Shown here: one piece after another, positions 24,876 through 34,538 of the stretch
Position numbering within the stretch: position 1 is the stretch's first letter
How the letters are laid out: each line of letters begins with the position of its first letter
Origin: a bacterium
GTDB lineage: Bacteria; SZUA-79; Acidulodesulfobacterales; Acidulodesulfobacteraceae
DNA: 64,000 bases
Assembly (NCBI GenBank): GCA_021812245.1
Contig: JAKAOK010000002.1
Location: forward strand, 1-64,000
Direction of reading: 5' to 3'
Position numbers and translations under genes: made by a program
The notes under the pieces: model-generated
The model's input: only the letters and a program-made list of their open reading frames with translations
Told to the model about the DNA's origin: nothing
The model's database searches: none

Positions 24876-24952
24876 TGGTGCGTCCAGCAGGATTCGAACC
24901 TGCGACCCACAGCTTAGAAGGCTGTTGCTCTATCCAACTGAGCTATGAACGC
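24876..24952 (-). tRNA. tRNA-Arg (anticodon UCU)
   Basis: A 77-nt cloverleaf on the reverse strand. The acceptor GCGTTCA pairs with TGGACGC, the D-arm is AGCTCAGTTGGATAGAGC and the T-arm is GCAGGTTCGAATCCTGC. The anticodon loop is CTTCTAA, giving UCU for AGA codons. The 3' CCA is encoded. AGA is a preferred arginine codon in this AT-rich DNA. Confidence 0.97.
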
Positions 24953-25286: not shown

Positions 25287-26951
25287 ATGAAAAATAAATA
25301 TCTATTAGTATTGTTTTTTATTATACGGTGCTTGTTCTTAAATGCAGATATAGCTTTCGGTAATTCGATATATAACGCTAAAAACAATAATTTAAATATT
25401 TTGCTTAAAAAATACCATATCAGCCTCGTTAAGCCGGAAATTATACCTGTAAAAACTAATAAAAAGCAGGTTAAAAAGGGAATGGGGCGCCAGAATCGTA
25501 TATTTAACTATAGATATAATTATAAAAGAGTCGAAGAGCATCCTTTACCCGGCTTTCTTATGCAAAAAGTTTCCCTTGTAGGCAGAGGAAGCGTTAAATT
25601 TGCATTAATGCTCTTATCGCGCGAAACAGGCGTCCCCGTTATTTTTCACGGGGGTTTCCCTGCCGGATTAAAAAACGACGCATATTATAAGGCCGTTCCT
25701 TTATACAAGGTATTAAAAGGGTTGGTAATTTCCAACGGCTTTAAATACAGATATAAAAACGGAATGTTATATGTTTACGCGGTAGAGGAAAAAACATTTC
25801 ATATTCCGGTTTCCGATTTACTTTCGTCTTTTTCGTCCACGGTCGGAATAAGCGGTATGAACGGGCATAACAATAATATAAGTAATTCTAATTCTGCCGG
25901 TATGCCGGACGGTCAGAATACGGGAAGCGCTCAGCCGGTCAGGACGGCTTCGGCAAATTCCATAAATCCTGCGGGCAATACTGGCGAAAGCAACGCAATT
26001 TCTTCTAATCCTTCCGGCTCTATTTCTTTAACCCTTTCGGAGTCCGACAGTCTCTACGGCATTATTTTAAGGAATATTAAAGAAATGCTCACGAAAAAAG
26101 GAAAATATTTCATTAATCCCAAAGACGGGTTAATATGGGTTAAAGACAGGGTTTCCAATGTCAACGAAGTTTCCGCCTATATAAAAAGAATCGATAAATT
26201 TCTTTCAAAACAGGTTTTTTTAAAAGTCGAGGTAATAGACGTAAGTTTAAATAAAGGATTTCAAACCGGTATAAACTGGAATCTGTTATTTAATCAGGCA
26301 TTTAAATCGAATGCTTTCGGTGCGGAGTCGATATCGGTTGCGGCTCAGCTTGCTTCAGGGAATAATATATCAAATGTGCCGTATATCGGCTTTACCGGTT
26401 CAGGAAACAGCAGCGCAATTTTAAATGCGCTTAAGACTCAGGGAACGGTCAATGTAATATCCCAGCCGAGATTGGTTTTAATGGACGGGCAGACGAGGCT
26501 GATTTCATCGGGAACGATAACCCCTTATATTTCGAGCATACAGACCGTGGCTTTAAGTTTGTCCCAGACCGAAACTTACCCCGTTATATCTCAGGTGCAG
26601 ACCGGTCTTTCTATATCCTTTACTCCCCATATAAATTTTAAAAACAATTCCGTTTCCGTTACTTTAAGCTTAATAGACAATTCTATCACCGGTTATCAAT
26701 CTTTTTCCGTTAGCGGCGATAGTTTTAGCAATCCCGTAATAGAATCAAAAAGTTTCTCGGACACGGTCAACGTAAAATCGGGTTCTACGATACTTGTCGG
26801 AGGTATATTGACCGCCGATAAAACAAAAAATACCTATGGAATTCCGATATTGTCTAAAATTCCGTTGATAGGGAACTTATTTAATTCTATAAACGATTCG
26901 AGCCAAAAGGAAGATCTTCTGATTATGCTGACCCCTAAAATAACTTTATAA
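25287..26951 (+). CDS. Type IVb pilus/MshL-like secretin
   Basis: The outer-membrane channel of a pilus or type II-like machine. The 554-residue protein has a signal peptide (cleavage near IAFG, residue 25), a basic N-terminal stretch and an STN/N0-like segment (about 95-170, FALMLLSRETGVPVIFHGGF). A Ser/Asn/Gly-rich linker (about 185-260) precedes the secretin domain, about 290-554. Secretin landmarks are NVISQPRLVLMDGQTRLISSG, VNVKSGSTILVGGILT and the end IPLIGNLFNS...KEDLLIMLTPKI. HIPVSDLLSSFSSTVG after the N0 region resembles MshL/PilN secretins of type IVb pili. It heads a nine-gene cluster. Confidence 0.88.
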   Translation: MKNKYLLVLFFIIRCLFLNADIAFGNSIYNAKNNNLNILLKKYHISLVKPEIIPVKTNKKQVKKGMGRQNRIFNYRYNYKRVEEHPLPGFLMQKVSLVGRGSVKFALMLLSRETGVPVIFHGGFPAGLKNDAYYKAVPLYKVLKGLVISNGFKYRYKNGMLYVYAVEEKTFHIPVSDLLSSFSSTVGISGMNGHNNNISNSNSAGMPDGQNTGSAQPVRTASANSINPAGNTGESNAISSNPSGSISLTLSESDSLYGIILRNIKEMLTKKGKYFINPKDGLIWVKDRVSNVNEVSAYIKRIDKFLSKQVFLKVEVIDVSLNKGFQTGINWNLLFNQAFKSNAFGAESISVAAQLASGNNISNVPYIGFTGSGNSSAILNALKTQGTVNVISQPRLVLMDGQTRLISSGTITPYISSIQTVALSLSQTETYPVISQVQTGLSISFTPHINFKNNSVSVTLSLIDNSITGYQSFSVSGDSFSNPVIESKSFSDTVNVKSGSTILVGGILTADKTKNTYGIPILSKIPLIGNLFNSINDSSQKEDLLIMLTPKITL

Positions 26952-26962
26952 TATAAGATTTT

Positions 26963-28663
26963 ATGAAGATAGGCGAATATTTAATATCAAAAGGAAAATT
27001 GACGAAAACCCAGATTAAAGACGCTCTTTTCGTGCAAACTATAAGCGAAAAAAGATTAGGCGAGATTTTAATAGAAAGCGGCTGTATTACAGATTCAGAT
27101 GTATCCGCTTATCTTGCTTACGATTCGGGCAGGGAATTTTTTAAGGAATTGAATGCCCTGTCTTTATATATCGATAAACAAGAAAACGAAGAGCTCAGTT
27201 TTAGTTTTCTTTACGAAATTCCGGCGATAGTTGTAAGAAAAGAGGACATTCCCTATATAATTTGCAGTGAAATTACCGCAGGCCTTTCCGAAAAAATGGC
27301 TTTCGACGAAAATTTAAAAAAATTTAAAATAGGGTTTTCGACGAAAAGAAAAATTTATGAAGCGCTTAATCAAATATTTATAAACAAGGCCGTATTTTCC
27401 GAAAAAGAAATTTTAGATGAAGCAATTGAAATTGCCTTATTAAAAGGTTCTCCAAACTTAAGAATCAAGCGGTCCGAAAATTTTTATATGATTATAATGG
27501 ATACGGAAATAAGTCAGGAAAACATAAGGGTTTTAAGTTTAGAAGCAGGCCGGAGAATAATCAATATAATAGCAGGGAATTGTCAAATAACATTGAAGAA
27601 GGGGCAAGGATTGGATGCAAAATTTATTTTTATTTCTAATTTTTATAAAGGCGTCCGAGTCAATATAAGAGTCGCATTTTTACCTATTTCTTCAAAATTG
27701 GATAAAGAATCGGCGCTTTTTGAAGCGGTTTTGAGAATTCACGGACTGAATAAGGTTATTGATTTTAAATATATAGGATTTACGGATAATAAAGTTGAAT
27801 TATTAGAGAAGTCTTATATTTATCCGCAAGGCTTGATTATTTCGACCGGACCTACCGGTTCGGGTAAAACTACGACGTTTTACGCTATGCTAAAACTTTT
27901 GTCGCAGAAGAAAAGTTCTATTATAACTATAGAGGATCCGGTAGAAATAGAGCTTAGAGAATCAAACATCACTCAGATGAATATATCGGAAGATTTCGGC
28001 TATTCCGAGGCCGTCCGCATTATGTTAAGAAGCGAGCCGGATATTATGATGATAGGCGAAATTAGGGACGAAATAACGGCAAAACATGCATTAATCGCGG
28101 CAGAAACCGGACACCTCGTTCTTACTACCCTTCATACCAATTCTTCCCTTTCGATATTCGGCAGATTTAAATCTCTTAATATAGATTCAGGCCAATTATT
28201 TTCGGTTTTAAAATTCGTAACTGCACAAAGGCTTTATAATCCGCTTTGTCCCGAATGTAAAAAAAGAATCGGTTCGGAGAAATTACCGTCCATATATAGA
28301 TATGCTTTAGAGGAAAATTTAAAATTTACCGCCTCCATATTGTCTAAGACTAATATGTGCAACAGATTCTTAGATTTTAAAGAAGTTTCATGTTTTGATT
28401 CCGTATATGTAAGGGGTGAAAAAAGTTGCGATAACTGTGGAGGGACGGGATACGTTAAAAGAAAACCGTTAATTGAAATTGCAGAATTCAATGATGCCGT
28501 AAAAGAAGAAATATACGGTAATATGGCTGCGCTTTTTAATCTTTCGTCGCTGGAAGAAATTTTAATGAATTTGTCTAATTTTGAATCTTTAAAAGTTCAA
28601 TCTTTTAATAAATTAATTAACGGAGAAATAGACCCCGTAACGTATTTTAATCTGTCGAAATAA
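26963..28663 (+). CDS. GspE/PilB-type assembly ATPase
   Basis: The cytoplasmic hexameric ATPase that powers pseudopilus or pilus extension. The 566 residues start with an MshEN-like N domain (MKIGEYLISKGKLTKTQIKDAL), a module that can bind c-di-GMP in some homologues. The motor follows: Walker A GPTGSGKTT (Lys302), Asp box ITIEDPVEIE, Walker B RSEPDIMMIGEIRD and His box HLVLTTLHTNSS. Two CxxC pairs (CPEC...CDNC) near the C terminus suggest a zinc knuckle. No PilT-type retraction ATPase is nearby. Confidence 0.93.
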   Translation: MKIGEYLISKGKLTKTQIKDALFVQTISEKRLGEILIESGCITDSDVSAYLAYDSGREFFKELNALSLYIDKQENEELSFSFLYEIPAIVVRKEDIPYIICSEITAGLSEKMAFDENLKKFKIGFSTKRKIYEALNQIFINKAVFSEKEILDEAIEIALLKGSPNLRIKRSENFYMIIMDTEISQENIRVLSLEAGRRIINIIAGNCQITLKKGQGLDAKFIFISNFYKGVRVNIRVAFLPISSKLDKESALFEAVLRIHGLNKVIDFKYIGFTDNKVELLEKSYIYPQGLIISTGPTGSGKTTTFYAMLKLLSQKKSSIITIEDPVEIELRESNITQMNISEDFGYSEAVRIMLRSEPDIMMIGEIRDEITAKHALIAAETGHLVLTTLHTNSSLSIFGRFKSLNIDSGQLFSVLKFVTAQRLYNPLCPECKKRIGSEKLPSIYRYALEENLKFTASILSKTNMCNRFLDFKEVSCFDSVYVRGEKSCDNCGGTGYVKRKPLIEIAEFNDAVKEEIYGNMAALFNLSSLEEILMNLSNFESLKVQSFNKLINGEIDPVTYFNLSK

Positions 28664-28676
28664 TCCGATTATTAAA

Positions 28677-29954
28677 ATGATAAAAAATTATTTAATAAAA
28701 TTTTATACGCCGGAAGGCAACAGCCTGATAAAAAATATCAAAGCGGAGAGCTTGTCCGAGGCAAAATCGGCAATAATACTGGAAGGTTATATGCCTGCCG
28801 TTGTGCTCCCCAACATATTTTTAGATATATTGCGTCCGGTTCGCAACGCAGGCATGAAAGATAAGGAGCTTTCCGTATTTTTTACGGAATTTTATCAGCT
28901 TGCAAAATCTTCCGGCTCTGTAGGCAAGGCATTGAGTTATATGAATAAAGGGGATAAAAAGCCGGCCGCAAGCGGAAAATATAAATTGTTATACCCTGTA
29001 AGATGGCTTTATTACAATCACAAACTATCAAAATCAAGGAAACGGCTTAAACTTATTAAAAATTGCGTTTCTTTGTTAGATAAAGGCGAAACGCTTAAAG
29101 AAATCTTTATTTCAAACAACTTTGAAGAAATTGTTCTTTCGCTGTTAGATTTAGCCGATTCAACCGGCGATTATCCGCAGACTTTTTTAAAAATATCGGA
29201 ATATTTCGATACAAAAAATTCTTATAAAAAAAGTATAGCTGGAGCGTTAGCCTATCCGTCTTTTCTATTTTTCTTACTATTCGTCGCATTTTCGGTATTT
29301 TTATATTATATAATTCCGACTTTTGCTTTATTTTTCAGCCAATTTCCGCATATACCGCAGTCAACTAAAAATATTTTGAGTTTATTTAATTATTTAAAAA
29401 ATATCTTTATATACTGCATAATTTTAGCCGCATCCGGTTTAGCCGCGCTCGGTTTTGACTTGTTTCGAATTAAAACTAAAACGGTATCTTTTATGCTTGA
29501 TATTCCTCAAATCAGAAACATTTTAAATTACGGCTATCTGAACTGGATTTTTTATCAATTTTCTCTAATGATTTCATCTGGCGTTACGGTTAACGCCGCA
29601 TTTAATTATTTCAGGAAAAATACTTCCAAGATATATTTTAAAAATAAATTTGAATTAATTTACGCGGATTTGATTAGCGGAATTACCCTACATGATTCAA
29701 TTGTTAATGCAAATTTTTTATCGGACGATGCCGTAGAATCTATCGGTTATGCGGAAATAGGAGGTTTTTTGTCCGAAACGCTCTTAAGATTATCGCTGGA
29801 ATTTAAGGAAAAATCAAACCGGTATATGAAGTTATTTGCAAAAGGATTATTTTTTTTAGCTGTTGCTTCCGTCGTATTTTTTTTATTTTTAATGTTTTTT
29901 TCTTTATTTTTGCCTCTTATCCAAGGAATGGTCGGATTGCCGGCAAACTATTAA
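28677..29954 (+). CDS. GspF/PilC-type inner-membrane platform protein
   Basis: The polytopic protein that couples the ATPase to pilin assembly. It has 425 residues with duplicated T2SSF domains. The first (about 130-250) ends in membrane segment PSFLFFLLFVAFSVFLYYIIPTF. A second membrane segment (about 240-262) and the second domain follow, then the C-terminal membrane helix FFLAVASVVFFLFLMFFSLFLPLIQGM. The GF(I/L)SETLLRLS region is typical. Its position directly after the ATPase gene (13 nt) is the standard order in type II and IV systems. Confidence 0.88.
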   Translation: MIKNYLIKFYTPEGNSLIKNIKAESLSEAKSAIILEGYMPAVVLPNIFLDILRPVRNAGMKDKELSVFFTEFYQLAKSSGSVGKALSYMNKGDKKPAASGKYKLLYPVRWLYYNHKLSKSRKRLKLIKNCVSLLDKGETLKEIFISNNFEEIVLSLLDLADSTGDYPQTFLKISEYFDTKNSYKKSIAGALAYPSFLFFLLFVAFSVFLYYIIPTFALFFSQFPHIPQSTKNILSLFNYLKNIFIYCIILAASGLAALGFDLFRIKTKTVSFMLDIPQIRNILNYGYLNWIFYQFSLMISSGVTVNAAFNYFRKNTSKIYFKNKFELIYADLISGITLHDSIVNANFLSDDAVESIGYAEIGGFLSETLLRLSLEFKEKSNRYMKLFAKGLFFLAVASVVFFLFLMFFSLFLPLIQGMVGLPANY

Positions 29955-30016
29955 TCGATTAATCAGAATTAAATCAATCAAATCATAACAAATAAAATTT
30001 AAGGAGGCGGTAAAAT

Positions 30017-30598
30017 ATGATTAAAAAAAAATTTAAAAAAAGCAACGACGGTTTTACTTTAATGGAAATTATAGTTGCAATGATAGTGGTGGGAATACTA
30101 TCTGCAGGAGGTTTGATGGTTTATAACGGGCTCATAGGTTCGTCAAACGTTACCGCCACGGTTCAATCTATCACTAAAATTGAGTCTGCCGTAAATTCTT
30201 ATATGCAGGTAAACGGAGGAAGCATTATGCCGCCTTCGGGAGTATCTCTTCCTTATGCGATGCAGGAAGATAATCTTCTTCCTGCATCATGGACGGTCAA
30301 CGGAAATAACGTCGCTCCTCCTAATCCGGGTTTTATACAGAGCTATTTTATCTCGACAAATTCCAATCCCGGACAATATCGGTACATAATAGGCATAAAT
30401 GCCCCTCAGATGACCAATGCGCAGGCTTTAAATATATGTAATTCATTAGAAAATTCTATATCCGGAGTCGATGCAAGCGAAAACGCCGTTTTTAATATAG
30501 GTAACGGACAGACTTGTTTGAGCGATTTATTTAACGGCAATGCCTCATCGGCCGATAGTTCTAATTTTCAGGGGAATTTAACCTTTACGTTTAATTAA
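30017..30598 (+). CDS. Major prepilin-like protein (type IV pilin)
   Basis: A 193-residue prepilin with a basic 12-residue leader ending in Gly, then FTLMEIIVAMIVVGIL; the mature protein has Phe1 and the canonical Glu5. The hydrophobic alpha-1 helix is followed by a globular domain with two cysteines near the C terminus (LNICNSLE and GQTCLSDL), a likely disulfide loop as in type IVb pilins. A very strong Shine-Dalgarno (GGAGGCGG) suggests the highest translation in the cluster. It needs a prepilin peptidase that is not encoded here. Confidence 0.88.
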   Translation: MIKKKFKKSNDGFTLMEIIVAMIVVGILSAGGLMVYNGLIGSSNVTATVQSITKIESAVNSYMQVNGGSIMPPSGVSLPYAMQEDNLLPASWTVNGNNVAPPNPGFIQSYFISTNSNPGQYRYIIGINAPQMTNAQALNICNSLENSISGVDASENAVFNIGNGQTCLSDLFNGNASSADSSNFQGNLTFTFN

Positions 30599-30645
30599 AT
30601 TACAAAGAAGCCAAAGAAGTTAAAAGTTTATACGAATGAATAATT

Positions 30646-31284
30646 ATGAAACATTGCATTATATTAGCCGGAGTAGTCGGAATTACCCTGTTTTATACGT
30701 TAATATTCTCAAAATTATGTTTCGGTTTGAGTAAAGGGCAGATTTACAACTTAGAGGCACAGAATGTAGTAAATACTGCAGACCTAGTAATAAAGGCGGA
30801 GCATGCATATTTTTCGAACTACGGAAGGTTTGCGGGCATAGCAGGCCTTGAACAAAGCAGTCCGGCATATTTAAGCCCTATTCCGGTTTACAGTTTCAAT
30901 AATGAAGGGTGCGTGAAGAAAATATTATTTAAAATAAATATTTATATCTGCGTAAACTTGCAGGGCGGAACGCTGAATGTTCTTATGCCGGATGATTTTA
31001 CTTATTCGGATATAGCGGTACGTGAGATAAGCAAGGGCATTACCGGAAAAACAGAGCAAATTTCGTCCGACTACGGTTTAGCCGATATTTCTTTTAATCT
31101 TAAACTAAACCCGCCATCTTTCGCATCCAATCCGGATAGTGCTTCTCCGGTTAGTTCGACGCTTACAAGTCCGGATGCGAACGGCGGAACGAATTATACG
31201 AATACCGAAAATCAAGGCGGTTCTATAAATAGAGCGATAGAGGCGGTCGTCAGTTTTTTTACGGCAGTTCTGAGCCTTTTTTGA
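30646..31284 (+). CDS. Pilin-like cluster protein with Sec-type leader
   Basis: This 212-residue protein has an N-terminal hydrophobic segment (about 5-27) followed by FGLSKGQ, so it looks like a Sec signal or anchor, not a class III prepilin leader. The next region, TADLVIKAEHAYFSNYGRFAGIAGLEQSSPAYL, resembles the post-helix part of the minor pilin two genes on (LINAESTY...FSTIGSLQTAGYL). Two cysteines flank a short loop (CVKK...YICVN). A Ser/Thr/Asn-rich linker (about 165-190) leads to a C-terminal hydrophobic helix ending VLSLF. The exact family is unknown. Confidence 0.65.
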   Translation: MKHCIILAGVVGITLFYTLIFSKLCFGLSKGQIYNLEAQNVVNTADLVIKAEHAYFSNYGRFAGIAGLEQSSPAYLSPIPVYSFNNEGCVKKILFKINIYICVNLQGGTLNVLMPDDFTYSDIAVREISKGITGKTEQISSDYGLADISFNLKLNPPSFASNPDSASPVSSTLTSPDANGGTNYTNTENQGGSINRAIEAVVSFFTAVLSLF

Positions 31285-31311
31285 CTACATATAGAAAGAG
31301 AAGGAGAATTT

Positions 31312-32295
31312 ATGCAAATTTCAAAAAATAATATCGCAGGGAATAATAAAGGATTTTCACTTATAGGCGTGATTATCTCTATGGTCGTCGTCTCGATTAT
31401 GGCGGCTTTGTCTTTGCCCGCACTCAAAGGGATGGTGTTTGAAAACAGCGCTGATAATGTATCGTTGCTTGCAAATACTCTTATAAATGCTGAGAGTACT
31501 TACGTAAATAATAATAATAGTTTTAGTACCATAGGCTCTCTCCAAACCGCCGGATACCTTGCTCACGGTCTGGGAATTAACTTTGTCGGCGGCAGTCCTT
31601 CTTCTGATTGCATATATGGTAGTATAACCGCAAAGAACGATACGAAAATATGCTTGAGCGTTAATAATTCCGTTCAAAACGGGACGCCGCGGGAAATAAG
31701 CTACGCTCTCGAGATAACGGCGGCGCAAGGCCAAGAATCCAATAATTATTACGATTTTTATAACGATATAAAGCATAATATACCCGGAAGCGCTATGATT
31801 AACGGGAATGAAATAATTTATATAGACCCGATAGCCGTAGATAATAATCAGGCAGGCGCCTACAGCCAATATATAGGAATGAGTTTTTATATAACCGGAG
31901 CAATATGTTATATTACCGAAACCGCATATATAAATTCTGGCAGGGGGCATACATATACGAGAATATGGTATGGCGGAATGCTGTCGCTATATTTTATAGT
32001 AGAGGCTGTAAACGGAAACACGGCGTTATTAAGTTATGCCAATAACCCGAATTCCGAATGCAATTACAGTTCGTCAGAAAACAACAATGCGGGAGATTCC
32101 TATTCTTACAGTTCATGGGTTGGAGGAGCATTCCAAAATCCATATCTTCCCCAGGTTTGGGGAACGGTGCGCTATTCCTACCGGGAGGGGGAAATGAGTT
32201 ATGTTCCGGTAGAATCTCCCGGGTATGAAATAGAAATACCGGCAAGCTATCTCCCCGATTTAATAAATTTAAACCAACCGAATACGTTAAATTAA
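31312..32295 (+). CDS. Large minor prepilin lacking Glu5
   Basis: A 327-residue prepilin-like protein. A 14-residue leader ends in Lys-Gly, then FSLIGVIISMVVVSIMAAL. Mature position 5 is Gly instead of Glu, a feature of GspK-like tip pseudopilins, which begin the fibre. The globular part is large (about 290 residues) and Tyr/Ser/Asn-rich, with two cysteine pairs. A Shine-Dalgarno AAGGAG precedes ATG. A tip subunit or adhesin role is inference from position and the missing Glu5. Confidence 0.75.
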   Translation: MQISKNNIAGNNKGFSLIGVIISMVVVSIMAALSLPALKGMVFENSADNVSLLANTLINAESTYVNNNNSFSTIGSLQTAGYLAHGLGINFVGGSPSSDCIYGSITAKNDTKICLSVNNSVQNGTPREISYALEITAAQGQESNNYYDFYNDIKHNIPGSAMINGNEIIYIDPIAVDNNQAGAYSQYIGMSFYITGAICYITETAYINSGRGHTYTRIWYGGMLSLYFIVEAVNGNTALLSYANNPNSECNYSSSENNNAGDSYSYSSWVGGAFQNPYLPQVWGTVRYSYREGEMSYVPVESPGYEIEIPASYLPDLINLNQPNTLN

Positions 32296-32300
32296 AAATC

Positions 32301-33482
32301 ATGTATAAAAATTTAATTTATATAGAAGAATATGATATTTACCAGTATTTTGACGGAGAAAAATCAATCTTTTCCCATGATTATCCCGGAAGCACGGCGG
32401 ATTTTGAAATTCCGGCGGCGCTTGCGGTAATATCTAAAAATATTAATTTTTCCGTTATTCCAAAAAACGGCGTTAAATCGGTTAAAAAATCTTGGTTAAA
32501 CAAATATCTCGCTAAATATTACAAGGACGAGTCTTATTTTTATATCGGCAACGCCCATAATGAATACGGAGTCTATCATACCCTGCCTTTAAATATAAAA
32601 AAATATTATTCGTTATTAAAGGGAATTGATTTTATTATTCCGTACGATTATTTAGCGATATTATTTTTGAATGAAAAAACCATAATTTCCGAAGAAAAAG
32701 AATCCTTTATATTTATAGAAAAAGCTGAAGATATCTATAAAATAATGGTAGTCTTGAACGGGTTTAATCTTTTTCCCGTAGCAAGTTTTAAGGAAGACAT
32801 GCTAAACGATAATTTAAATATTTTAAAAACAAAATTAAATTCAAAAAATATTAAGATAAATAAAATTATTACAAACTATGCCGGCGCAGATTTTAATATT
32901 TTCTTTGGAGACGCCGGTATTATTAATTTTGCGGCAAAGGATTTTGCCGCATTTTTCGACAATATAAAAAGAACGGTTCCTCATTTTGAAAACTTGGAGA
33001 TAAAATTTAAAAATATAGAACTCAGGAAAAATAAATTAATTAATCTGTATATAACCGCTTTAATCATAGCCATATTTTTTATGCAGTCAACCGCTTTATT
33101 TTTTAATAATAAATCGTATGCCGAAAATCAAAAAATAAAATTGTTAAATAAAAGTACCGCCGTTTTATTGGAACAAAATCAAAAAAAAGAGAACATTATT
33201 TTATTCAACAAATATTTTATGTCGGCGAATGTAGCCGGTTACCTTAAAAGATTTATGAGAATTTTTCCTAAAGGAGTAAGGGTTAAGAATGTAGATATCA
33301 GAAGATTTAAAAATAACTATTTTATCGACGGAACCGTTCTTGTTTATGGAGGATACAGAAAATTTATAGAAAATTATAATTTAATTTTGAAAAAATCCAG
33401 CCCGCTTGGACCCTTTAGAATTTCTTATAACGTAGATAATTTCGGAAAACCTTTTATTAAATTTTACGGAAGGTTAAAATGA
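32301..33482 (+). CDS. GspL/PilM-PilN-like assembly protein
   Basis: A 393-residue bitopic protein. A cytoplasmic N-terminal domain of about 245 residues has the composition and pattern of a divergent actin-like PilM/GspL domain. One membrane segment (about 249-270, LYITALIIAIFFMQSTALFF) and a periplasmic part with a heptad-rich stretch and a ferredoxin-like fold, as in PilN/GspL, follow. Identification depends mainly on topology and on order before GspM- and GspC-like genes. It is very Lys/Asn/Ile-rich. Confidence 0.7.
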   Translation: MYKNLIYIEEYDIYQYFDGEKSIFSHDYPGSTADFEIPAALAVISKNINFSVIPKNGVKSVKKSWLNKYLAKYYKDESYFYIGNAHNEYGVYHTLPLNIKKYYSLLKGIDFIIPYDYLAILFLNEKTIISEEKESFIFIEKAEDIYKIMVVLNGFNLFPVASFKEDMLNDNLNILKTKLNSKNIKINKIITNYAGADFNIFFGDAGIINFAAKDFAAFFDNIKRTVPHFENLEIKFKNIELRKNKLINLYITALIIAIFFMQSTALFFNNKSYAENQKIKLLNKSTAVLLEQNQKKENIILFNKYFMSANVAGYLKRFMRIFPKGVRVKNVDIRRFKNNYFIDGTVLVYGGYRKFIENYNLILKKSSPLGPFRISYNVDNFGKPFIKFYGRLK

Positions 33483-33967
33483 AGCGGTTTAAAAATAAAA
33501 ATTTATTAATATTTTTTTTATTGCTTTTAATATCCGGTTATATTCTTTGTTTTAAATTATTCCCTTCATTTAATAATTATTATAAGCTAAGGCGGATTTA
33601 CGTTAAAAAGTTGAATATGAAAAAGTTACTCAAAATCAAACTATTTAATGAAAAAAGAATAAAACCCATAAACTTTAAAGCGGGAAATCATAGATTTTCT
33701 ACCAATCTTCTTACCGTGTTATCTTATATAAATTATTTACGAAAAAGCGGATACGATATTAAAGTAAAAGTCTTAAATAAAAAATCTTTATTAAAATCCA
33801 AAGATATAATAATTATTCTTAATAAAATTTCCAATATAGGCGTTGCATTTTCATTATTAAGAACATTTAGGGCTTTTCCGTCGGAACTTAAGAAAATATC
33901 CATAAAATCAGGAAAAGATATAGGCATCCGTATCATTATTAACGAGAGGTTAATCGGCTTAACTTAA
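33479..33967 (+). CDS. GspM/PilO-like inner-membrane protein
   Basis: A 162-residue protein with a basic N terminus, one membrane segment (about 10-27, LLIFFLLLLISGYILCF) and a periplasmic domain ending ...DIGIRIIINERLIGLT. It overlaps the GspL-like gene by 4 nt (ATGA). Size, topology and gene order fit GspM/PilO, the partner that dimerises with GspL/PilN, but sequence motifs are weak. It is one of the most AT-rich genes in the window. Confidence 0.65.
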   Translation: MKRFKNKNLLIFFLLLLISGYILCFKLFPSFNNYYKLRRIYVKKLNMKKLLKIKLFNEKRIKPINFKAGNHRFSTNLLTVLSYINYLRKSGYDIKVKVLNKKSLLKSKDIIIILNKISNIGVAFSLLRTFRAFPSELKKISIKSGKDIGIRIIINERLIGLT

Positions 33968-33983
33968 AGAGGGTGAAATAAAT

Positions 33984-34538
33984 ATGCAGGGCAAAAATTT
34001 TATAAATATTTTTAAAAAAACATCAGAATGGATTGCATTTTTTCTTTTTGGCGGTTTTTTATTTATTCTTGCATTAAATCGTTTAGGCATTGGATTCAGA
34101 AATAAAACTATTTCGGATTACGGAGTAAAAAATAAAAAAACTTTTGACCTCGTTTTGAAACCCGAAAAAAAATCTTCAAAAAATAATCTAAAAGATATTT
34201 TTAATATTCCCGACAAAAAATATAAAAAATTTAACCGGCTGTTTATTTCTAAAGGATTCGCGCGCGGCGGAGCGGAGGGTTATCTTGGCAGCGGTCAGCC
34301 CGGCGGCGAAAATTTACCAAATTTTATTAAAAGGCTAAAGTTCAAAGGGTTTTCGAAAAAGAACTCCGCTCCTCCGTCTTTAATATTTATAAGCGGTAAA
34401 ACTGCCCTTTTAAAAGCAGGCGGGAGAAGTTATTATGTCCGTGCCGGAGAAAGCATTAAAGGAATGTTTATATTGAAAATCGGTTTAACGGGGGTTAGAT
34501 ATTCGGATAAGGGAAGAATAAAATATTTAAATTTTTAG
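33984..34538 (+). CDS. GspC/PilP-like protein
   Basis: A 184-residue protein with one N-terminal membrane segment (about 14-31), then a long basic linker with a Gly-rich patch (ARGGAEGYLGSGQPGGENL). A C-terminal domain follows (ISGKTALLKAGGRSYYVRAGESIKGMFILKIGLTGVRY) that looks like the HR/PilP beta-domain, which connects the inner-membrane platform with the secretin. A good ribosome-binding site (AGAGGGTG) is present. It ends the cluster 18 nt from the convergent exporter gene. Confidence 0.65.
   Translation: MQGKNFINIFKKTSEWIAFFLFGGFLFILALNRLGIGFRNKTISDYGVKNKKTFDLVLKPEKKSSKNNLKDIFNIPDKKYKKFNRLFISKGFARGGAEGYLGSGQPGGENLPNFIKRLKFKGFSKKNSAPPSLIFISGKTALLKAGGRSYYVRAGESIKGMFILKIGLTGVRYSDKGRIKYLNF

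Follow-up and report, generated by a model that had tools for sequence, protein, structure and literature searches.

A nine-gene cluster of the Acidulodesulfobacteraceae that probably encodes a type 4 pilus fitting no named class

Introduction

A run of nine genes at positions 25287–34538 of contig JAKAOK010000002.1 (assembly GCA_021812245.1), from an uncultivated bacterium of acid-mine type in the Acidulodesulfobacteraceae, raises the question of whether it encodes a pilus or a secretion machine and of which known kind. The window, meaning the whole stretch of DNA that was analysed, comprises the first 64,000 nucleotides of this contig. An initial annotation, made from the sequence alone, had described the run as a self-contained machine mixing features of MshA-like and type IVb pili with those of type II secretion. 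Excerpts of the review PMC10191384 list six bacterial classes of type 4 filament and leave room for further subtypes. The results given below indicate that the probable product of the cluster is a type 4 pilus whose lineage matches none of the named classes.

Results

Family scores of the core machinery

An assembly ATPase, a platform protein and a pilin with a type III signal are present together, which places the cluster in the type 4 filament superfamily. Pfam cut-offs were passed by the secretin, the T2SSE ATPase, the T2SSF platform and two N_methyl prepilins. Membership of a named class was examined with NCBIfam equivalog models, each score being compared with the cut-off of its model. 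The cut-offs for type IVa pili (T4aP), type IVb pili (T4bP), the mannose-sensitive haemagglutinin (MSH) pilus, the type II secretion system (T2SS), the competence (Com) pilus and the tight adherence (Tad) pilus were all missed by a wide margin. The top NCBIfam match of the secretin was MshL (TIGR02519), below cut-off with 164.2 of 250.2 bits, and the PilN/T4bP model TIGR02520 gave 113.3 of 287.65 bits. The T4aP models reached 194.7 of 675.65 bits (PilB) and 112.6 of 284.35 bits (PilQ), the Com models 169.9 of 300 bits (ComGA) and 113.4 of 240 bits (ComGB), and the Tad ATPase model TadA (TIGR03819) 45.3 of 373.15 bits. A minimal type II secretion-like system, in which a short periplasmic pseudopilus would push an exoprotein through the secretin, would be an alternative to a surface pilus; against it stand the scores of GspD (123 of 351 bits), GspE (185 of 630), GspF (71 of 424) and GspG (25 of 89) and the presence of only two pilins with a type III signal.

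The ATPase has the Walker A sequence GPTGSGKTTT and two CxxC pairs. The sole NCBIfam model that it passed is that of the MshE-related cyclic di-GMP (c-di-GMP) domain NF053729, at 47.2 bits against a cut-off of 38. Two 24-residue MshEN-like motifs lie in its N-terminus, and judged from these motifs binding of c-di-GMP there is plausible.

Related clusters were placed in groups numbered 1 to 4, the window type being group 1. A secretin profile of groups 1–3 gave at least 478 bits solely in family genomes. Group 4-type secretins scored 266–310 bits, and the best score in 356 genomes outside the family was 195.6 bits, at an MSH-type locus. Among the matches listed from plasmid records, 40 of 1961, identity to the window secretin was at most 24%.

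Phylogenetic placement

In a concatenate of secretin, ATPase and platform (25 rows, 1434 columns) groups 1–3 formed a clade with support of 100/100, T2SS, T4aP and MSH formed a second (100/100), and T4bP joined group 4 (100/99). Both of the 100/100 clades held when three rows were added; the R64-type rows then stood with group 4 (94/96) and a TCP-like (toxin-coregulated pilus) row sat on a branch of 2.56, joined at 86/85. The ATPase tree (61 rows) likewise recovered groups 1–3 (100/99); the R64-type rows with group 4 (96/84) and the remaining rows (83/88) stood apart from them. Taken by itself, this tree nested group 1 in group 2 (98/87). The secretin tree (32 rows) united groups 1–4 (99/98) next to R64-type PilN (91/96). 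Holding groups 1–3 together with group 4 was rejected (p 0.002). The secretin thus leans towards T4bP and the concatenate towards a lineage of its own, which may still have its place inside a broader T4bP.

These trees hold between 25 and 61 rows of unequal letter make-up with long branches, and in the concatenate T4aP is represented by one row and T2SS by one or two. The background rows of the ATPase tree come from 35 of the 79 loci of a pattern scan. The labels MSH (L176–L181, L184 and the Aeromonas locus L151) and TCP-like T4bP (L210) were given by reading of neighbours and proteins and not by curated match; the MSH-type locus L175, the only one tested, passed the MshL cut-off with 258.3 bits. 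The trees contain no Com rows; a ComGA family search of 372 genomes, made to obtain reference rows for Com, gave no match over the cut-off.

A divergent MSH-type pilus is very improbable and already largely refuted. The top secretin match to MshL, the MSH-type loci as best outside matches of the secretin profile, the MshEN-like domain and a locus free of peptidase, as MSH loci are in the excerpts of PMC6668835, all speak for it. A single clade with MSH was rejected by the approximately unbiased (AU) test (p 4.8e-5), however, the MshL score falls well short, mshM is missing and the fold match to MshA is poor (see below). The comparison of secretin and ATPase with T2SS, MSH and R64-like sets, which the initial annotation had proposed, gave a separate lineage in the concatenate and did not put every component inside a characterised clade.

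The major and minor pilins

The major pilin carries the type III signal GFTLMEI, with Glu5 present, behind a leader of 12 residues. Two cysteines occur in each of 17 aligned pilins, the first being invariant. Its structure model was compared with known folds in two ways. In a VIA search the best eight rows were all type IVb pilins with Z of 8.0–9.2 (among them PilS of S. Typhi, CofA, CFA/III and TcpA), followed lower down by PilA1 of C. difficile (7.2), PilW (about 7), Thermus PilA5 (5.7), PilA of P. aeruginosa (4.4) and MshA (3.5). With Foldseek the top 13 matches were T4bP pilins (E of 5e-3 to 0.14, probability 0.63–0.99). The major pilin is accordingly modelled with a type IVb fold, at a pLDDT of 77 and a Foldseek E of 5e-3 at best.

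The minor pilin has the signal GFSLIGV with Gly at position +5, and Glu5 was seen in no group 1 ortholog. It aligned with the minor pilins of groups 2 and 3 at hhalign probabilities of 98.5 and 97.7%. Large minor pilins lacking Glu5 are proposed in the excerpts of PMC5207764 to be the first, tip subunit, and judged from fold or position this protein is probably the tip subunit. The protein encoded between the two pilins lacks a type III signal; it shares the pilin stem region with the minor pilin (hhalign probability 88%) and matched group 2 and 3 minor pilins at 92–93%, and it is thus a pilin relative. In genome G003 an orphan pilin without Glu5 (GFGLIGI) stands beside sulfatase-like genes (L209, 1854–2777); the cluster of the same genome lacks the genes for both the minor pilin and this pilin relative.

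Several of these observations weigh against a surface pilus of T4bP type. The model of the major pilin is of modest confidence and its fold matches have weak E-values. Its first mature residue is Phe and its leader is short; Phe+1 with a short leader is a type IVa trait. The G003 cluster does without both accessory pilin genes, and the MshEN-like motifs of the window ATPase deviate at 3 of 22 relaxed positions. A large minor pilin without Glu5 is also compatible with GspK of T2SS. The strongest contrary sign is the conservation of the major pilin, which exceeds that of the other eight proteins: its mean pairwise identity over 10 genomes is 80.6%. Such conservation is unusual in an exposed adhesive pilin and would suit a pseudopilin better.

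The secretion-like alternative is kept in consideration because the major pilin is so conserved. It also draws on the GspK-like minor pilin (a signature given in excerpts of PMC5207764), on the L/M/C set described below and on the lack of a PilT gene of its own. Set against this are, besides the scores, the position outside the T2SS/T4aP/MSH clade, the type IVb pilin fold and the absence of a substrate gene beside the cluster, and we regard the alternative as unlikely.

Layout of the cluster and the L-, M- and C-position proteins

The nine open reading frames (ORFs) lie on one strand, and the distance between neighbours ranges from −4 to 62 bases (Table 1). Chance assembly is ruled out by the gene order, which is kept in relatives, and by dN/dS values of 0.07–0.34 for all nine genes against the ortholog L037. 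A promoter scan gave no more than expected by chance (41, expectation 39.0), and an Rfam scan of nine loci found tRNAs and one borderline small RNA and no c-di-GMP riboswitch.

Table 1. Positions in the window of the nine cluster genes and the neighbouring tRNA gene.
Feature	Coordinates	Strand	Evidence
Secretin, outer-membrane channel, 554 aa	25287..26951	+	PF00263 120 bits; MshL TIGR02519 below cut-off; tree
Assembly ATPase, 566 aa; N-terminal MshEN-like c-di-GMP domain, motif partly degenerate	26963..28663	+	PF00437 211 bits; NF053729
Inner-membrane platform, 425 aa	28677..29954	+	PF00482 84.8 bits
Major pilin, 193 aa, with a type III signal and, in the model, a type IVb fold	30017..30598	+	PF07963 27.5 bits; model; fold matches
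Pilin-like accessory protein, 212 aa; N-terminal hydrophobic (Sec-like) segment	30646..31284	+	no family; hhalign
Large minor pilin, 327 aa; no Glu5, probable tip subunit	31312..32295	+	PF07963 23.7 bits; hhalign
PilM-PilN/GspL-like inner-membrane protein (L position), 393 aa	32301..33482	+	model; Foldseek
Small protein, N-terminal hydrophobic stretch, GspM/PilO position, 162 aa	33479..33967	+	hhalign to group 2
Small protein, N-terminal hydrophobic stretch, GspC/PilP position, 184 aa	33984..34538	+	hhalign to group 2
tRNA-Arg(tct), a conserved neighbour by which the chromosomal site is recognised	24876..24952	-	11 of 13 related loci have it next to the cluster

The last three genes had been called very AT-rich and hard to recognise, and both statements held. 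Their GC contents are 27.9% (L), 24.3% (M) and 33.2% (C) against 37.2% for the window, that of M being the minimum of the 51 window ORFs of at least 150 aa. In Pfam and NCBIfam scans none of the three, nor the pilin relative, matched a curated family over its cut-off. The model of the L-position protein (pLDDT 82) shows an actin-like cytoplasmic domain, a long helix and a small beta-alpha-beta periplasmic domain, and Foldseek matched it to the cytoplasmic domains of PilM and GspL; in the model, then, the fold is of the PilM/GspL type. The M- and C-position proteins matched their group 2 counterparts in hhalign (98.2 and 95.8%). They gave no match to GspM, PilO, GspC or PilP, and the three proteins gave none to GspL, M and C of E. 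coli K-12, one sequence each. Alignment of the group 3 L and M proteins with those of group 1 was weak (3.6 and 19.9%). The identities of M and C are thus assigned by position only, and the 'GspL/M/C set' of the initial annotation stands for L, by fold, and not for M and C, whose matches are the counterparts on contigs C15 and C9 of the same genome.

Peptidase and PilT genes elsewhere in the genome

As had been noted, the nine-gene cluster holds neither a peptidase nor a PilT gene, and no substrate is encoded beside it. It is not self-contained, however. A search of the genome (61 contigs totalling 1.78 Mb, completeness 87%) located both functions outside the cluster: a single PF01478 (A24) prepilin peptidase on contig C10, and two ATPases of the PilT family, on C26 and C25, that pass the NCBIfam cut-off. 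The latter belong to a T4aP set in which PilB and PilQ also pass their cut-offs, and PilM-N-O-P-like genes were assigned by reading on C61. In addition to the PilMNOPQ set of C61, C25 carries another PilM-N-O-like set, accompanied by a secretin and a small protein resembling PilP (L021, 6387–11240). The missing peptidase is no oddity, because all MSH loci likewise lack one according to the excerpts of PMC6668835 (Denise et al.).

Paralogous clusters and exchange of pilus modules

Beyond the reach of the initial annotation, the genome holds two paralogous clusters, on C15 and C9, the former inside a type IV secretion system (T4SS) operon. On C15 (L141, 3369–11233, and L015, 255–14515) genes for VirB4, TrbI/VirB10, VirB9, VirB8, MoxR and SLT precede the pilus genes, whose order is L-M-C-secretin-pilin-ATPase-platform, and GGDEF and HD genes follow. 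VirB4 and TrbI/VirB10 scored 95.9 and 59.5 bits, CagX/VirB9 (28.4 bits) and VirB8 (20.7 bits) were below cut-off, and GGDEF and HD gave 124 and 63 bits, the GYP motif of HD being assigned by reading; MoxR and SLT were scored on their counterparts in genome G016. The C9 cluster has a GGDEF gene and no T4SS genes in the stretch examined.

The T4SS backbone of C15 is common to two further elements, G016 C2 and G008 C14 (the three are covered by the loci L143+L051, L144+L059 and L141+L015, the last being C15). Identities among the three are 67–81% for VirB4, 60–70% for VirB5, 60–76% for VirB8, 62–68% for TrbI, 59–66% for VirB9, 70–80% for MoxR and 70–74% for SLT; VirB6 (36–60%), a lipoprotein (44–51%) and GGDEF (37–52%) are less alike. 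The pilus modules fall into two deep lineages, with 32–43% identity for the secretin, 29–36% for the ATPase and 20–33% for the platform. That of G008 is of R64 type, with PilO2-, PilS- and PilV-like proteins assigned by reading, and the other two are of the window's type. Given that the backbones are alike and the pilus modules are not, the pilus is exchanged as a module. The order within the clade of groups 1 and 2 received 48/10 and 56/17 in the concatenates, and exchange may have run from chromosome to element or the other way.

Coupling-protein matches (PF02534) were found on C8, C5 and C49, and elements of the C15 type are putatively conjugative. Linkage to a T4SS has precedents in itself, since excerpts of PMC9045228 and PMC5297154 describe type IVb pili that serve conjugation. 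On an Arsenophonus plasmid (L185, 1–13422), VirB9, VirB10, VirB11 and VirD4-type genes are followed directly by a type IVb pil operon.

The window cluster might also act in trans, providing T4SS elements like the one on C15 with the pilus for mating contact. The paralogy of the whole operon with the C15 element, the T4SS in the same genome and the exchange of modules between elements agree with such a role. The cluster occupies one chromosomal site across genera, no T4SS gene was found in the 14 group 1 loci examined, the window's included, and the elements have a pilus of their own; this role is therefore a distinctly improbable one.

Distribution and chromosomal site

ATPase orthologs of 71–99% identity were found at 11 loci of uncultivated metagenome-assembled genomes by the pattern scan of genome contigs, which reaches close relatives only. 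Group 1 is present in 17 of the 30 family genomes (G042 being counted by score alone), and the lineage was found in none of the 356 genomes sampled outside the family. Ten of 13 fetched loci have all nine genes in order; L040 lacks the minor pilin and pilin-relative genes and two are cut by contig ends. In G002 (L208, 121–5001) eroded fragments of the ATPase, platform and later genes lie between tRNA-Arg(tct) and a major facilitator superfamily (MFS) gene, and in G005 and G007 the MFS gene is present with no cluster adjoining it. The fixed tRNA-Arg site, the eroded remnant and these absences mark the cluster as an old chromosomal locus that was lost more than once.

Integrase-like genes adjoin the 3' end of tRNA-Arg(tct), which faces away from the cluster, in L037 (982–2040), L044 and L046, and the tRNA looks like an attachment site. 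That the cluster is itself a mobile island at the tRNA is ruled out by the location of the integrases on the other (3') side, by the conserved site and by the eroded G002 copy.

Discussion

A model for the pilus

We hold with moderate confidence that the cluster encodes a machine, complete except for the prepilin peptidase, for a T4b-like surface pilus that is restricted to the family, serves adhesion or aggregation from a chromosomal locus and is kin to mating pili. The parts, their conservation, the selection on them, the paralogy and the T4SS linkage of the paralogs are direct results. Fold or position is the basis for the T4b-type filament, the L-M-C link and the shared peptidase, whereas the role in adhesion or aggregation, the control by c-di-GMP and the mode of retraction are inferences. 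The peptidase of C10 would trim the major pilin and the minor pilin lacking Glu5, and the latter would start assembly and sit at the tip, helped by the pilin relative in the periplasm. The ATPase would then drive the platform so that major pilins are added, the L-, M- and C-position proteins would form the link between ATPase and secretin, and through the secretin the fibre would exit. Retraction may be passive or may depend on a PilT from the T4aP set elsewhere in the genome. The fibre would serve adhesion or cell–cell aggregation, perhaps tuned by c-di-GMP through the N-terminus of the ATPase. The window cluster would be a fixed chromosomal relative of the pili of conjugation-like elements, which there probably hold mating cells together.

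More tentatively, and with a good deal less confidence, groups 1–3 may be a separate type 4 pilus subtype confined to SZUA-79/Acidulodesulfobacterales, placed between T4bP and the T4aP/T2SS/MSH clade. The origin or diversification of this subtype may have taken place in conjugative elements, as a mating-pilus module that could be exchanged and had a c-di-GMP switch of its own; it would later have become fixed on the chromosome as an adhesion pilus inherited vertically, unless the capture ran in reverse.

On pili of the Acidulodesulfobacterales lineage the literature searched yielded only the mention, in excerpts of PMC6776010, of pilA among the highly transcribed genes of Ca. Acidulodesulfobacterales. 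Neither the lineage nor the swapping of modules was found described in the literature searched. A lineage that branches deeply outside the T4aP/T2SS/MSH clade and combines T4b-like pilins with MSH- and T2SS-like parts bears on the origin of the classes, and the exchange of whole modules on one T4SS backbone makes it testable that conjugation elements and chromosomes trade pili.

Comparison with known systems

The mosaic proposed by the initial annotation survives in part: the machine is T4P- and T2SS-like with mixed features and is claimed by no named family model, but its pilin resembles type IVb pilins and not MshA, and the join with MSH is rejected. Like T4bP (the R64/IncI thin pilus, TCP and CFA/III), the system has a single gene cluster, a type IVb pilin fold and few minor pilins including one large one, and a T4SS link is seen in its paralogs. 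Unlike them, the window cluster lacks its own peptidase, a lytic transglycosylase, PilV and a PilO2-type protein, has an MshEN-like ATPase domain and Phe+1, and encodes a secretin without a clear lipoprotein signal (by reading); the concatenate also puts groups 1–3 apart from the R64-type and group 4 rows. The R64-type record L149 carries its own prepilin peptidase, as does the TCP cluster.

With the MSH pilus the window cluster shares its best secretin profile match, the MshEN-like domain and the peptidase-free locus, and the order L-M-C-D-E-F is common to its paralogs and the MSH locus L175. It differs in the pilin fold, in the rejected joint clade and in having no MshM; excerpts of PMC6668835 give mshM, with mshA, E, G and L, as mandatory MSH genes. 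The secretin, ATPase, platform, L/M/C positions and large minor pilin without Glu5 are as in T2SS, whereas every GspD/E/F/G cut-off is missed, only two pilins have a type III signal and no substrate lies beside the cluster. The T4SS-linked pilus modules of the same family (C15 and G016 C2) have homologous operon genes and minor pilins lacking Glu5; unlike the window cluster, they carry T4SS, GGDEF and HD genes and a separate STN-like protein.

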